Part shown: positions 2,523-9,247 of the stretch, one piece after another | Layout: every line of letters begins with the position of its first letter | Numbering within the stretch: the first letter of the stretch is position 1 | Assembly: GCA_029881175.1 (NCBI GenBank) | Contig: JAOUNC010000078.1 | Location: forward strand, 1 to 9,247 | Reading direction: 5' to 3' | Length of the DNA: 9,247 bases | From: Nitrospirota bacterium | Lineage (GTDB): Bacteria > Nitrospirota > Nitrospiria > Nitrospirales > UBA8639 | Notes under the pieces: model-generated | What the model was told of the DNA's origin: nothing | The model's input: only the letters and a program-made list of their open reading frames with translations | Database searches by the model: none | Program-made: the position numbers and the translations under genes

Positions 2523-3704
2523 TTGAAAACCCAAGTACGATTTATCCGACTGGCGTCGATATCCTACTTTTGCATTCTCTCAGGTCTGACTGCCTTCATT
2601 GCCCCTCCTCTTCTTCTTGCCGGCCCTCCTAATGTTGTCCTTAGTCGACCCATTCATTTTCCGACGATCCATGGCAATCCCGTGACTCTCTCACCAGGCA
2701 AATATCTGATAGAGCAAGCCGGACCACAGGAATTACGGGTCACCGCTGCAGCAGATAAACAAGAATTTCTCATTCAAGCTCAAGCGCTCACCCATGAACA
2801 ATATGAATTGTTTTCCCCCATGGCCTTAACCCGCTACGGCAAAAACCATGAATTTCTGATGAATCTTTTGCTCCCTGGAGGGATTCGACTCGAAGCCACC
2901 GGCAGCTCAAAAGACTTACCAAAGCCCACACCTGTCCAAGAGCCGCCTCCCATCGCACCAGTAGGAGAACTGCCCATACCACCAGCGGCTCCTGCTCCAG
3001 TTGAACCACCCCCTGTAGCCGCGATCATTCCTGACCCGGAACCGCCGGCACTTCCCCAGCATACGCCAATCCCCGATCCACCACCGCCCTCTCCCGTTCT
3101 CATTGAGGAATCCCCGGTGATGCCGTATCAAGCACCTGCTCCCGACCAACCAGGCCTACGCATTGACGGAAACAGTCCCGACCCGCAATTCCCATCAATC
3201 TTTGTATTAGCCCCGAACCATATTGGACTCACCAGTCAGGAACAGCCTGTTCTCTATTGGCATCTGTCCCAGGGCGCTCAACATCCCCTGGATGTCATGA
3301 TTGCAGAGGAAGGCCATTTAGACCTGCTGCTGGATATTCGATTACTGCCTCCCCTCCAAGCCGGTATCCATGAACTCCGATTAGAAGACTATGGCATCAG
3401 CCTGGTTCCCGAAGTCCCCTATCGGTGGACAGTGCGAGTAATGGTTCCTCAAGCCTCAGCAACCATTACGGCCAGTGGAGCGATTCAACGAATCAAGGCC
3501 CCTGCCGGCTCCCCGACTGCTCTCCTCAATTCACCGGAAGGCTATGCACAAAAAGGGCAGTGGTACGATGCGATCACCGCCCTACAGACCCTCCTCCAAG
3601 CCAAACCCGGAAACACCGCCCTACTCGCTCAACGGGCTGCCTTGCTGGAACAAGTCGGCCTCACCGAAGCCGCCGCCTATGGGCAACAAACCCAGACCCC
3701 GTAA
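2523..3704 (+). CDS. Exported proline-rich protein with a C-terminal DUF928-like domain
   Basis: 393 residues from a TTG start, chosen because AAGGTG (2512-2517) lies 5 nt upstream and the signal peptide begins right after it. Residues 1-33 form a signal peptide (KTQVRFIRL, hydrophobic core, LLLA/GPP). Residues 35-130 look like a beta domain (VTLSPGKYLIEQ, FLMNLLLPGGIRLEATGS). Residues 133-210 are a proline-rich linker likely to be extended. Residues 223-385 match the pattern of DUF928: 'GLTSQEQPVLYWHL', 'GIHELRL', 'VPYRWTVRV', 'IQRI' and the hallmark 'YAQKGQWYDAITALQTLL', ending in an alpha-helical TPR-like tail. DUF928 proteins have no established function and are best known from cyanobacteria. 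The product is probably periplasmic or surface-linked. The domain call rests on remembered motif patterns. Confidence 0.8.
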   Translation: MKTQVRFIRLASISYFCILSGLTAFIAPPLLLAGPPNVVLSRPIHFPTIHGNPVTLSPGKYLIEQAGPQELRVTAAADKQEFLIQAQALTHEQYELFSPMALTRYGKNHEFLMNLLLPGGIRLEATGSSKDLPKPTPVQEPPPIAPVGELPIPPAAPAPVEPPPVAAIIPDPEPPALPQHTPIPDPPPPSPVLIEESPVMPYQAPAPDQPGLRIDGNSPDPQFPSIFVLAPNHIGLTSQEQPVLYWHLSQGAQHPLDVMIAEEGHLDLLLDIRLLPPLQAGIHELRLEDYGISLVPEVPYRWTVRVMVPQASATITASGAIQRIKAPAGSPTALLNSPEGYAQKGQWYDAITALQTLLQAKPGNTALLAQRAALLEQVGLTEAAAYGQQTQTP

Positions 3705-4062: not shown

Positions 4063-6828
4063 ATGATCCTCACACCCATCCGAAACGAAAAACGTCACAG
4101 TGAGCCACCAATAAGACAAGTAGCCAAGAAAAGCCAAAACATACTGTGCGGGCTGGTATCGGGGCTGCTGATGCTGACAGCCGGAATCCAGGATGTCGAC
4201 GCCGCCCGCGTAATAGGCTCCGGCCTGTCCTCCCCGACGAGAACCATCACGTTTTCCGAGGTTCGCGTTCCTTCTGGGGCGGTCGTCACCACGCAATTCG
4301 CACGATGGGGGGCGGGGGTCACCTTCGGCAGCCGGTCATCGACTGAAGGACTCTATTTGACGACTGCCGGTCATCCTGGCCAAGGCCTGCAGAATTATTT
4401 CCCAGATACCTACAATCCCTTCGTGCTCAAATTCGATCAACCCGTCACGGCTGCGGCGTTCGAGATGACGACCAACGGTCACACTGATAGTTTTACGGCA
4501 CTGCTCAAGGGTGTGGTCGTCGATACGTTTTCCGTAAAAACCGGGGGCTGGGATTTTTATGGATTCACGGGAATCGTGTTCGATGAAATCCAGGTCCACA
4601 TTGGTCAAGGCCAGCACACCAACGATCACATGCGATTGGACAATCTTCAGATTGGTGCGGCGGCCCCGGTCAATTCTGCACCGGCGCCCGTGGTCGACCA
4701 ACGGGTCGTGAACATTGACTTTCAGCCTGGCGGTAACACTTACAGCGGAGTGGGGGCGTTGGGCGGCGCGTCCGACACGCGCTGGAACGCCGTTGGTCCT
4801 GCTGGCGGCAGCAATCTCACCTATGCCGATGGATCACCAAGCACCGTGGCGATTACCCCATCTGGGTACAACGCGGGCTACGCCAACAATCAGCAGATCA
4901 ACCCGCTACTCAATGATTGGATTTACAGCACATCGACGACTGAACCCACGCTACGGATCTCTGGGCTCGCTCCTAATTCGCTCTATGATATTGCGTTCTA
5001 CAATGGTTTTTATTGGCAGGACTATACGGTTCAGGGTCAACAGGCTGGAGTTGCGCAGACCAAGCCCGTGGCTGCTCAGGGATCTGCGGGCGCACCCCCG
5101 TTTCCTCAAGGGACCTATGGAATACTTCAAGGTGTCAGGTCGACCGCGTCCGGGACGATTTCGATTACTACCGCAGCAAAGCCCGGAGGGAATTATGGTG
5201 TCGATGAGACGATTGCTGGTATGCAGATTCAGAAGCAGTCCACGGCGGGGCAGATTGCTGCGCCCCCCACACCCAGTGCCCCCACAGCCTCCCTGGTTCC
5301 CGATGGCGGGTTCGAGGTTCCGCTCACTAGTACTCTTGTCGGAAAACCTGTTGGCAGCAAGATCGGCGGTTGGACCGTCATCGGCCCGGCAAACAGCACC
5401 TTCCTAGTCAGCCTGCCTGCCTGGAACAAGATTCCAGCGCGAGAGGGCAAAGTGGCGGTGCACATCGGCGGCTACTTGAGAGCCGGTGGCGTCAGCCGCT
5501 CGTTCGCCACCCGAGTCGGCACCACCTACCAGATCAGCCTCTGGGCGGTGAACTCGCCGAACAGGGGCACCGGTACCGGCAAGGTGAGAGTGCACGGAGG
5601 TGGGGAGTTACTGAACCAACAGTTCCAAGCGCCAGCGCCACCTTCCTGGAAACAATCGTCCTTCTCCTTCACAGCGAGAGCGTCGACCACCACGATTGAG
5701 ATCCAGAACGTCTCCGGTGGGCTGACCATCGACGACGTGACCGTCACGCCGGCTCCCACCATGTCACTTACGCACCCTCGAAACCCCATCGCCACGGATG
5801 TAGGATCATGGACTAATGGGAGGATAAGGATGGACGCACTGCCGTTCGCCTCCCAGGGGGCCAATACTGCTACGGGGTGGAATATTTACAAGGATTGCTA
5901 TGGGAAAGAGAACTGGCATCCACAGCATGTTGTGCGTTTAGCGAATAAGAACGGGCTGGCCTATTTTATGGTCGCTCAGTCAGACAAGGGCGGCGGATTT
6001 ATCACATTATTACAGACTCATCCCAATCAGCTAGATTCAAGCACGGACCTCATCAAGACGCCGCCGTCCGGAGGAAATACCGGCGCGTATATTTGGGCGG
6101 ACGGTTACCCATCAAATGGGGCGAATCCGATTGGAAGCTGGAATCATCCGGGAAAGATGGAAGTCATTGGCGGTTTGTTAGTCGTGGCGGCACAGAACTG
6201 GTCAACGACCTGCCCAACAGGATCAGGCTTGGGAAGCTCAATTGACGCGTTACTGTTCTACGACGTCAGAGATCCTGAAAACCCAAAATACCTCGGGAAG
6301 ATTAATGAAGACGAGCTAGGGGTCAATGAAATCTCTACTGTCGGAATTGTAAAGACTCCCAACAACACTTATATCCTCACCGCCGGTGGGGACGGGCGCT
6401 ATTCCACTTGGAGAGCGCAAGAGATTACCACGGATATCAAGAAATGGACGCGAATTCCGACTCCAATAGCCGAATCGTTCAGTGGTCAACATGGCATGAA
6501 TTTCAATAGCTATCAAAGGACGACCAGAATCGGGAACTTATCTCCTCGCGCCGGCGAGGAACGGGTCATGTTCTTCGATGCCGACGGGAAATATGACAAC
6601 TTCATGATTCAGGAATATGTATATGACGCTGCCACTGGATTTCTTAAGTTAACAGGAACAAAGCAGTTTCCTATTGGTGCGCATAACCTCGGCAACGGAC
6701 TCATTGGGGCGGACCGCGATTGGGACGCCGACTCTCTTTACGTGACACGATATGGAAAGCCAGTAATCTATACGATTGAAAGCGCAGGTGGTGTCCACGG
6801 CAGGGTTTTTCAGCTGCATAATAAGTAA
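4063..6828 (+). CDS. Large secreted multidomain protein, beta-sandwich domains plus propeller-like C-terminus
   Basis: 921 residues. AAAGGT lies 8 nt before the ATG. A basic, unusually long n-region (about 25 residues) precedes a hydrophobic core (27-41) and a VDA/A cleavage site near 47. Residues 50-200 form a beta-sandwich-type domain seen in exported 'anchor' proteins. Residues 214-390 form a second one that looks carbohydrate-binding-like (VVNIDFQPGG; ISGLAPNSLYDIAFYNG). Residues 412-563 resemble DUF642/galactose-binding folds (LVPDGGFEVP; YQISLWAVN; LTIDDVTVTP). Residues 570-921 look like a beta-propeller: a LVIVD-type repeat 'YDVRDPENPKYLG' (733-745) and recurring His motifs WHPQH (618-622), WNHP (693-696), GQH (808-810) and AHN (873-875). 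No C-terminal PEP-CTERM or LPXTG sorting signal is present. The likely role is an extracellular or outer-surface binding protein. No enzyme activity is established. Confidence 0.75.
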   Translation: MILTPIRNEKRHSEPPIRQVAKKSQNILCGLVSGLLMLTAGIQDVDAARVIGSGLSSPTRTITFSEVRVPSGAVVTTQFARWGAGVTFGSRSSTEGLYLTTAGHPGQGLQNYFPDTYNPFVLKFDQPVTAAAFEMTTNGHTDSFTALLKGVVVDTFSVKTGGWDFYGFTGIVFDEIQVHIGQGQHTNDHMRLDNLQIGAAAPVNSAPAPVVDQRVVNIDFQPGGNTYSGVGALGGASDTRWNAVGPAGGSNLTYADGSPSTVAITPSGYNAGYANNQQINPLLNDWIYSTSTTEPTLRISGLAPNSLYDIAFYNGFYWQDYTVQGQQAGVAQTKPVAAQGSAGAPPFPQGTYGILQGVRSTASGTISITTAAKPGGNYGVDETIAGMQIQKQSTAGQIAAPPTPSAPTASLVPDGGFEVPLTSTLVGKPVGSKIGGWTVIGPANSTFLVSLPAWNKIPAREGKVAVHIGGYLRAGGVSRSFATRVGTTYQISLWAVNSPNRGTGTGKVRVHGGGELLNQQFQAPAPPSWKQSSFSFTARASTTTIEIQNVSGGLTIDDVTVTPAPTMSLTHPRNPIATDVGSWTNGRIRMDALPFASQGANTATGWNIYKDCYGKENWHPQHVVRLANKNGLAYFMVAQSDKGGGFITLLQTHPNQLDSSTDLIKTPPSGGNTGAYIWADGYPSNGANPIGSWNHPGKMEVIGGLLVVAAQNWSTTCPTGSGLGSSIDALLFYDVRDPENPKYLGKINEDELGVNEISTVGIVKTPNNTYILTAGGDGRYSTWRAQEITTDIKKWTRIPTPIAESFSGQHGMNFNSYQRTTRIGNLSPRAGEERVMFFDADGKYDNFMIQEYVYDAATGFLKLTGTKQFPIGAHNLGNGLIGADRDWDADSLYVTRYGKPVIYTIESAGGVHGRVFQLHNK

Positions 6829-7528: not shown

Positions 7529-8101
7529 ATGATGCGAAGCCTCTTTGTAGTCTTTACCCTAAGCCTGTTATTCCACACTTCCGTATCGCAAGCCGCCGAC
7601 CCCAACACCACCAAACAGATTCAATTATTACAGCGGCAGGTGACTGCGCTCCAACAAGAATTGCGCACAGTCCGAGCCCTTATCAATGTCGCCAAAGATG
7701 GCACGCTATTTATTCGTGCCAAACAACATAAACAAGAGGTGACCGGAGGAAATTCAAGGAATACCGTGAGCGCCGATCAACTCACTGAGGTGGGAAGATC
7801 ACAAACAGAAACGATAGGTCTGAACCAAAACCTCACCGTCGGAACGAATCAAAGCACGAGGATTGGCAAGGATATGGCCCTCACGGTTGGCCAGAATCTG
7901 ACAGGAAATGTGGCGAGCAATCGGACGATGGCTGCGGGCAAACAGATGATCATCACGGCAGGCGACCGCTTGACCCTGCAAGCCGGCAAATCCTCCATTG
8001 TCCTCAACAAGAACGGGGATATTGATATTCAAGGGAAGGAAATTTTCATCAAAGGGTTGGGCCAAGTCATTATTAAGGGATCCAAAGTTACCACGAATTG
8101 A
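7529..8101 (+). CDS. Exported coiled-coil protein with VgrG/gp5-like octapeptide-repeat spike domain
   Basis: 190 residues. GGAAAG (7516-7521) lies 7 nt before the first ATG. The second ATG (7532) aligns with the start of the paralog at 9036 and may be the true one. Residues 1-22 form a signal peptide ending SQA/ADP. Residues 29-53 form a short coiled coil (IQLLQRQVTALQQELRTVRA). From about residue 85 to 188 there are roughly 13 eight-residue units: LTEVGRSQ, TETIGLNQ, NLTVGTNQ, STRIGKDM, ALTVGQNL and so on, ending FIKGLGQV, IIKGSKVT. This VxGxxxxx pattern is known from the triple-stranded beta-helix of T4 gp5 and the C-terminus of VgrG proteins. Here the N-terminal gp27/gp5 parts of VgrG are absent and a signal peptide replaces them. 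The product is probably a trimeric rod in the periplasm or outside the cell. The function is unknown. Confidence 0.85.
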   Translation: MMRSLFVVFTLSLLFHTSVSQAADPNTTKQIQLLQRQVTALQQELRTVRALINVAKDGTLFIRAKQHKQEVTGGNSRNTVSADQLTEVGRSQTETIGLNQNLTVGTNQSTRIGKDMALTVGQNLTGNVASNRTMAAGKQMIITAGDRLTLQAGKSSIVLNKNGDIDIQGKEIFIKGLGQVIIKGSKVTTN

Positions 8102-8264: not shown

Positions 8265-8933
8265 ATGAAAAACGAGTATTCTCCAACCCTCATGCATTGG
8301 AAAGGTTTAGGCATTGCGGCTTTCTGCCTGACGTTTGCTATCGGATGTTCTACCACCCAACCTTCCCTCTCAAGCGAGGGCCCATTGGAAGAGATCCAAG
8401 AAGTGGAAGCGGGCAACGATCCCGAAGTTGCGGTGGCCGATTCGGGTGCCCCCCAAGACTGCGTTGAAAACGACGCACGCCCAGCCTGCCACGTGAAACC
8501 TCGAGGGCTCGGCTTTATCCCCATTAAGGTGAAGAGCGAGACCAGCCAACGATGTTTACGGCCCAGCGGCGGCAGTACAAATGAAAACGTGGAAATTATT
8601 CTGTCCACTTGCTCAAATACTAATAGCCGCCGCTGGTACAGAGAACAAGGGGTGTATGCAGGCGGAGACAAAATCATCAATATGCACTCGGGAAAATGCA
8701 TCGAACGGGTCGGAGCGTACTTACGCCAGCGAACCTGTGCCAATTCCTCCAATCCCACCAGTGCTCATAATCAAACCTGGGTATTCCAAGGGACCCCACC
8801 CTTCGGAAGCGGAGATTTTCTGAAATCCTGGACATCAGAAGGCGGATGCGCCCGTGCAATGAATTCAACAAGCGTCCGAATGTCGACTTGCCAAAACGAT
8901 GCAAACCGGCGGTGGTATCAAGCCGCTTTTTAA
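8265..8933 (+). CDS. Lipoprotein with a ricin-type beta-trefoil lectin domain
   Basis: 222 residues. I chose the ATG at 8265, not the in-frame ATG at 8148, because AAAGGAG (8249-8255) lies 9 nt upstream and a lipoprotein signal peptide follows directly (hydrophobic residues 15-27, then AIG/C with the lipidated Cys at 28). Residues 30-80 are an acidic linker with two cysteines (66, 75). Residues 86-222 form a beta-trefoil with three lobes, each with a Cys pair (97/116, 145/158, 195/209) and a QxW-type motif: RRW (122-124), QTW (170-172) and RRW (215-217). Only the middle lobe keeps the canonical Gln. Ricin-type domains bind sugars, commonly galactose or related glycans. The protein would sit lipid-anchored in the outer membrane or periplasm. 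It lies between two exported coiled-coil paralogs and is probably co-expressed with them. Confidence 0.88.
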   Translation: MKNEYSPTLMHWKGLGIAAFCLTFAIGCSTTQPSLSSEGPLEEIQEVEAGNDPEVAVADSGAPQDCVENDARPACHVKPRGLGFIPIKVKSETSQRCLRPSGGSTNENVEIILSTCSNTNSRRWYREQGVYAGGDKIINMHSGKCIERVGAYLRQRTCANSSNPTSAHNQTWVFQGTPPFGSGDFLKSWTSEGGCARAMNSTSVRMSTCQNDANRRWYQAAF

Positions 8934-9035: not shown

Positions 9036-9247
9036 ATGCGAAGTCTCATCATTCCCCTTGCAACAATGGTGTTTGCTACTCAAATGTCACTAGCCTTGGC
9101 CGCCGACCCGAGCTTTCGACAGGCGCAGCCGCGTCAGATGGCCCCACAACGAGGAAGCGCCATCCCTCAAATACAACACACACCGGATTTTCTGTACCAA
9201 CAAATCACGGCCCTGCGAGAACAAGTCACCAACCTTCAAGGTCAAGT
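9036..9247 (+). CDS. Exported coiled-coil protein, N-terminal part; paralog of the 7529-8101 product
   Basis: Seventy codons are present before the window ends. AGAGGAG (9021-9027) lies 8 nt before the ATG. Residues 1-22 form a signal peptide (MRSLIIPLATMVFATQMSLA, cleavage at LALA/ADP). A proline- and glutamine-rich stretch follows, then a coiled-coil segment (LYQQITALREQVTNLQGQ). The MRSL start, the ADP mature N-terminus and the 'QVTxLQ' coiled coil match the protein at 7529-8101, and the first 12 bases from the aligned ATGs are nearly identical. It is therefore likely to be a duplicated gene, and its missing C-terminus may carry another octapeptide spike or a different head domain. Confidence 0.75.
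   Translation, partial: MRSLIIPLATMVFATQMSLALAADPSFRQAQPRQMAPQRGSAIPQIQHTPDFLYQQITALREQVTNLQGQ

Follow-up and report, generated by a model that had tools for sequence, protein, structure and literature searches.

The window analysed here is the whole of a 9,247-nucleotide stretch, contig JAOUNC010000078.1 of a Nitrospirales genome (assembly GCA_029881175.1). On its forward strand, an open reading frame (ORF) with an ATG start at positions 7529..8101 encodes a predicted exported spike (needle) protein of 190 residues, so classified by its match to PF22178, by its family of 49 members and by its similarity to the needles of VgrG, the hub protein of type VI secretion systems (T6SS). The same strand encodes, in order, a predicted Sec signal peptide (residues 1-22, 7529..7594), a coiled-coil helix (residues 25-51, 7601..7681), about 10 needle octads (residues 79-158, 7763..8002), 8 of them strictly in register, and terminal needle strands (residues 159-190, 8003..8098) that end in KGSKVTTN. 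The spike scores 44.7 bits against PF22178 (Gp5_trimer_C; curated cut-off 30.9), and comparisons of its monomer model with Foldseek and VIA match it to VgrG needles. The spike's final 32 residues resemble the strands at the end of such a needle.

The initial annotation had proposed a stand-alone protein with a Sec signal peptide, a short coiled coil and gp5/VgrG-type octads, and much of this architecture is borne out. The putative signal-peptide core, SLFVVFTLSLLF, has a 12-residue mean Kyte-Doolittle hydropathy of 2.48, and the c-region, judged by eye, reads SQA followed by ADP. Of the 49 family members, 42 (including the one in the window) pass a crude Sec rule, as do 3 of 170 control stretches, residues 61-260 of other proteins. 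In residues 27-54, the best heptad register places hydrophobic residues at 7 of 8 a/d positions, and the AlphaFold2 monomer model contains one helix, residues 25-51, after the signal peptide. The octads needed correction: the repeat itself is real, as none of 100,000 shuffles of the mature protein reach 8 octads in register (shuffle maximum 6), but there are about 10 consecutive units instead of 13, and their signature is x[VIA]Gxxxxx, with a hydrophobic residue adjoining the glycine, not VxGxxxxx. A count in the VxG register showed nothing, and the adjacent [VIA]G register revealed the repeat. Pfam detects neither of the hub/OB domains PF05954 and PF04717 in the 190 residues and, up to E 1, no C-terminal membrane anchor or adhesive domain; the needle strands form the C-terminus. 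A weak NCBIfam match to Bd0635 (E 0.29) was taken as coiled-coil similarity. The sequence data thus support a stand-alone needle protein with a predicted export signal that is not a VgrG fragment, as first annotated.

A family search covering about 5.8 billion sequences retrieved 49 matching proteins, including that of the window. The layout of signal peptide, coiled coil and octads, for which a homolog search had been suggested, recurs in 43 of them (181-205 residues); the other six are shorter, with five apparently truncated or frameshifted and a 121-residue one lacking a signal. Organism names are attached to only two members (Nitrospira sp. and Nitrospirales). Among 235 genomes of the order, the spike profile matches 31. 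Six encode a full-length stand-alone spike (G000, G001, G002, G012, G023, and G027), and G019 has a C-terminal piece of one at the end of a contig. Most remaining matches are VgrGs with open frames of about 620-890 residues, alongside a few distant coiled-coil repeat proteins of smaller size, for example in G064, G203, and G205. These three genomes belong to another family of the order, and their coiled-coil proteins with short repeats (L082, L086, and L088) have a spike-like design at other sizes; one of them, in G205, adjoins a long exported VgrG.

In G001, G012, and G027, the spike gene adjoins a gene for a tandem tail-tube protein with a twin-arginine translocation (Tat) signal. Its two tube domains align end to end, as in the two-domain tube protein of phage T5, and its closest sequence match is the tube of the Streptomyces contractile injection system (CIS; 1.7e-9). 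The tandem tube occurs in 16 of the 235 genomes (E<1e-45), 12 of which show the Tat motif. In a draw of 395 genomes from across the phylum it was found in nine (E<1e-40), every one in this order. The Tat tube accompanies an exported VgrG in 7 of the 8 genomes that have the latter and occurs in 5 of the 227 others (Fisher 8.7e-10, a value that ignores shared ancestry and comes from genomes of varying completeness). All seven pairs lie on one contig, within 12 kb of each other, the same-contig VgrG of G208 being a second, cut copy. Four of the seven spike genomes also have the Tat tube and three have the exported VgrG. With a Tat tube gene next to the spike gene and, nearby in G001 and G027, the gene of a VgrG with a Sec signal, an exported tail-like needle is likelier than the originally suggested use outside any phage-tail setting, which the data do not support. 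A phage origin of spike and tube was considered and rejected: scans of viral contigs with both alignments confirmed no relative, and a phage collection yielded two weak partial matches.

The VgrGs encoded in the spike clusters of G001 and G027 combine the hub domains (in G001, PF05954 at 5.2e-64 and PF04717 at 8.3e-15) with a signal peptide. The window's genome carries such a VgrG on contig C294 (L034 732-2345), with a Tat tandem-tube gene 1.2 kb away. Of 299 VgrG homologs, 120 were listed; the crude Sec rule is satisfied by 99 of these. The remaining 21 include many whose frames begin within the protein and at least one, P0219, without a signal. The exported VgrGs form a clade in eight genomes of the order, with at least 48% identity to the hub of G000, and a signal-like core precedes the hub domain in all eight (10-residue mean 2.17-3.24). 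T6SS-type VgrGs (at most 35% identity) were found at 22 loci, one of them cut at the N-terminus, and the core mean is 0.48-1.30 in 20 of the 21 others; the exception, in G047, reaches 2.03 with an uncertain start. The T6SS sheath protein TssC (PF05943) was detected in 23 of the 235 genomes, several of which are incomplete. It was found in none of the eight exported-VgrG genomes, the 12 Tat-tube genomes or the seven spike genomes (one with the C-terminal piece only), in agreement with the first expectation that spike genomes lack T6SS; of the 21 genomes that have ordinary VgrG, 20 encode TssC. With 23 TssC genomes in 235, zero of eight and zero of seven are not significant alone; the contrast with ordinary VgrG carries the weight.

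Exported hubs also differ in whether they end in a needle. An anchor after the OB domain could be placed in 87 of the 120 listed VgrGs and was missed in 33 (an earlier pattern, since replaced, missed 49). Among these 87, 27 have a short tail of at most 100 residues with 0-2 octads, five of them being cut proteins, 58 have a tail of at least 180 residues with 3-12 octads, and two are intermediate. Among those listed, full-length short VgrGs mostly measure 528-551 residues and have a basic end, and long VgrGs mostly end like KGSKITQN, to be compared with the end of the spike. Within the order, the spike accompanies a short hub in three of three genomes and a long hub in none of five. In the wider collection, six spike/VgrG pairs lie on contigs of equal size (16889, 4010566, 56924, 30479, 48273, and 336939 bases) and are probably on the same contig; a seventh pair (2764 bases) was set aside, its members being from separate sources. 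All six paired VgrGs lack a needle-type ending.

Sheath genes seem to stand apart from these clusters. The sheath family PF04984 matches in 25 of 59 relatives' genomes. In G000, G001, G012, G023, and G058, the matches lie on other contigs than the spike, exported-VgrG or Tat-tube genes or far from them, and G027 and G002 have no match; this search did not include the clusters of G146, G205, G208, and G209. The genome of G058, from another family, contains two distinct sets. On contig C23 (L018/L059), three tandem-tube genes, all with a Tat motif (including L018 4773-5879), and an exported VgrG gene lie within about 12 kb. Contig C14 (L037) carries an apparently ordinary contractile cluster with a sheath-like protein (PF04984, 2.3e-23) and, recognized by eye, two signal-less tube-like proteins of one domain each and other tail-like genes. 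The exported set is therefore a separate thing in this genome. Orphan sheath-like genes were also encountered. One in G000 (contig C487, L058 1260-2411, reverse strand) encodes 383 residues with PF04984 and PF17482, lacks a signal peptide and adjoins trpA; others, of 382-384 residues, occur in G018 and G023 (adjoining secDF), and no other tail gene was noticed in the stretches read. As these genes of about 383 residues lack a signal peptide and lie in unrelated places, the orphan sheath was rejected as a part of the system.

We consider it an even call, judging from sequence, that the spike serves as needle to a tail-like tube that is exported and lacks a sheath. The broader proposal falls somewhat short of that: Nitrospirales might export the parts of a phage-tail-like tube one at a time, and these would assemble by themselves, outside the cytoplasm, into a sheath-less appendage, which would be neither a T6SS, an extracellular contractile injection system (eCIS) nor a phage. 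Sequences and models provide the export-type signals, the domain make-up, the clustering and the lack of detectable TssC; the steps of assembly we infer as follows. The needle would pass the Sec translocon by means of its predicted signal and trimerize through its coiled coil and octads. The hub would likewise be exported via Sec, and the needle trimer could then dock onto the needle-less VgrG trimer. The tube protein would fold first and leave the cytoplasm via Tat. Because it carries two tube domains, rings of three subunits are possible, and such pseudo-hexameric rings, like those of T5 pb6, might stack on the trimeric hub. Since the clusters show no sheath gene, the product would not contract and would form a rigid rod or tube, located either in the periplasm or at the cell surface. 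It probably would serve attachment or carry the lectin-like proteins encoded nearby.

Several observations weigh against this proposal. G023, although 98% complete, has the spike and neither tube nor exported VgrG; both are also missing beside the spike of G002 (66% complete), and G012 (73% complete) has spike and tube with no VgrG found. The window itself carries a lectin gene at the tube gene's usual place. The tube protein of the same genome matches no Pfam family and was placed via alignment A2, and four of the 16 tandem-tube genomes (G017, G020, G233, and G234) lack the Tat motif. The disregard of shared ancestry in the Fisher test and the uneven completeness of the genomes count here as well, as does the sheath in the ordinary contractile cluster of G058. 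The contrast between split and continuous needles is blurred by the long-hub genomes G058 and G205, which own distant coiled-coil repeat proteins of another size. Furthermore, the needle of the spike scores 5.4e-31 against T6SS-type VgrG, compared with 1.4e-18 (G146, the best) and 4e-11 (G208) against exported long VgrGs. Being nearer to the T6SS type by score, the spike was not simply cut from its own hub; a simple split-off from an exported VgrG is disfavoured, and the needle may have been recruited from a T6SS-type VgrG.

Alternatively, the spike could act by itself at the cell surface or within the biofilm matrix, as a secreted trimeric rod or the stalk of an adhesin, with hub and tube being separate domesticated surface proteins. 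We regard this as a doubtful although serious reading, because G023 retains the spike without hub or tube. The ricin-type lectin domains among the neighbours would fit such a rod, and in Bdellovibrio, MAT fibres, phage-like trimers with signal peptides, can serve as surface adhesins (PMC10769870). A lone rod does not account for the spike gene adjoining a Tat tandem-tube gene in three genomes or for the pairing with needle-less hubs, and the needle is not followed by any adhesive domain known to Pfam. Sec and Tat signals alone bring proteins only into the periplasm, and no outer-membrane channel was noticed in the cluster frames read by eye, not all of which were scanned for families. Both points would suit a periplasmic or cell-wall scaffold in which exported tail parts act as envelope spacers and never reach the surface. 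This we deem improbable, as the lectin-like neighbours hint at contact with the outside.

An ordinary needle of a T6SS or contractile injection system with a miscalled signal peptide appears highly improbable. Sequence and model do match VgrG needles, whereas TssC was found in none of the seven spike genomes, the signal layout is kept across the spike family, and the hub has a signal of its own. Decay of a VgrG gene is the least credible origin. It would explain that the spike matches only the C-terminal part of VgrG, whereas the gene is open and belongs to a conserved family of which 43 of 49 members share size, signal peptide and coiled coil, and Pfam finds no hub domain in the ORF (the upstream sequence was not scanned for remnants).

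The genes around the spike may bear on the site of action of the putative appendage. A predicted lipoprotein with a ricin-type lectin domain (8265..8933, forward strand; PF00652, E 2.1e-7, over the cut-off; start codon and lipobox-like AIGC assigned by eye) is followed by the start of a second coiled-coil protein with a Sec signal (9036..9247, forward strand). The latter is cut by the contig end and is 69% identical over 70 residues to a 178-residue protein of L006; its full-length relatives have weak DUF2345 matches below the curated cut-off. The lectin gene sits between the two coiled-coil genes, and the same slot holds the Tat tandem-tube gene in G001, G012, and G027. Another predicted exported protein (2523..3704, forward strand) consists of a shared N-terminal domain of about 100 residues and DUF928 (5.5e-21). 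The N-terminal domain scores 5.2e-37 with a home-made profile built from six seeds from these loci, this protein among them. This domain (VHFxxxDGSDVxxxxGxYxVExA) follows the signal peptide in 29 open frames at nine of 12 loci scanned (the window, L002, L014, L015, L016, L019, L034, L059, and L060); none was found in the T6SS control locus L017, in L018 or in L036. It has no Pfam match over the cut-off in the proteins scanned and might have a shared function in sorting or docking. Together with the ricin-type lectin domains in the window and in G001, its position after the signal peptide suggests that the cluster products may act outside the cell or at its surface.

Further genes were observed in the window and the related clusters. 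Upstream of the spike, positions 4063-6828 encode a protein of 921 residues that looks exported and matches DUF642 weakly, below the cut-off. A CxxCxxCC protein (PF03692 in L034), of a family that we take to include flagellin N-methylases, is paired in four genomes with a protein of about 120 residues containing a AATVAALGAALG-like stretch (L034 5003-6116, L019 1567-2644, L018 11286-12409, and L060 1661-2726), near an exported VgrG or Tat tube. A predicted exported protein of about 680-760 residues with an Ala/Gln-rich helical stretch (L002 4626-6737, L003 5820-8105, L014 4600-6642, and L015 4406-6502) has its gene immediately 3' of the one for the second coiled-coil protein in L002, L003, and L015; L014, a spike cluster, encodes it as well. 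Its role might resemble that of a tape measure.

To our knowledge, the surface structures of these bacteria are little known, and the tail-derived machines we know of (phages, T6SS, eCIS, and tailocins) are assembled in the cytoplasm. In the open literature, covered by titles and the starts of abstracts and with most subscription papers outside it, nothing was found that describes the combination of exported VgrG and Tat tube in Nitrospira. If the proposal of an exported tail-like tube is true, components of tails can take on a new role as an exported appendage, which would also explain VgrG annotations in genomes without T6SS. The analysis yields concrete, testable proteins in Nitrospirales.

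Among known systems, the C-terminal needle of VgrG and T4 gp5 (PF22178 Gp5_trimer_C, Gp5_C) shares the needle match and the octads with the spike, which differs in being a separate gene with a signal peptide and in having a coiled coil where those proteins have their hub and OB domains. T6SS, with VgrG and Hcp, have hub (PF05954 and PF04717) and tube parts in common with the clusters described here. However, the T6SS spike is loaded from the cytoplasm without a signal, whereas spike and hub here have predicted signal-like N-termini, the tube is a tandem protein with a Tat signal, and TssC is missing from all eight exported-VgrG genomes. Compared with the siphophage tube protein pb6 of T5, the tandem tube has a Tat signal, is encoded in bacterial clusters and shares 7% sequence identity. 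The eCIS (Afp, PVC, and Streptomyces CIS) resemble the system in that the tube protein is closest to the Streptomyces CIS tube. Their parts are made in the cytoplasm and include a sheath, whereas no sheath gene occurs in the clusters read here and the ordinary cluster of G058 lies on another contig and has signal-less tubes. A trimeric autotransporter adhesin is defined by its C-terminal membrane anchor, for which the spike has no match in Pfam (E up to 1). The MAT fibres of Bdellovibrio share with the spike a signal peptide and a phage-fibre-like trimer outside the cytoplasm, signal and trimer both being putative in our case. MATs have a beta-rich domain of about 130 residues right after the signal peptide and form long fibres with binding tips (PMC10769870), whereas the spike has a coiled-coil helix (residues 25-51) and a bare needle and, on this description, falls outside the MAT superfamily. 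MAT fibres are the nearest described analogue that we found, yet they represent a different type of protein.
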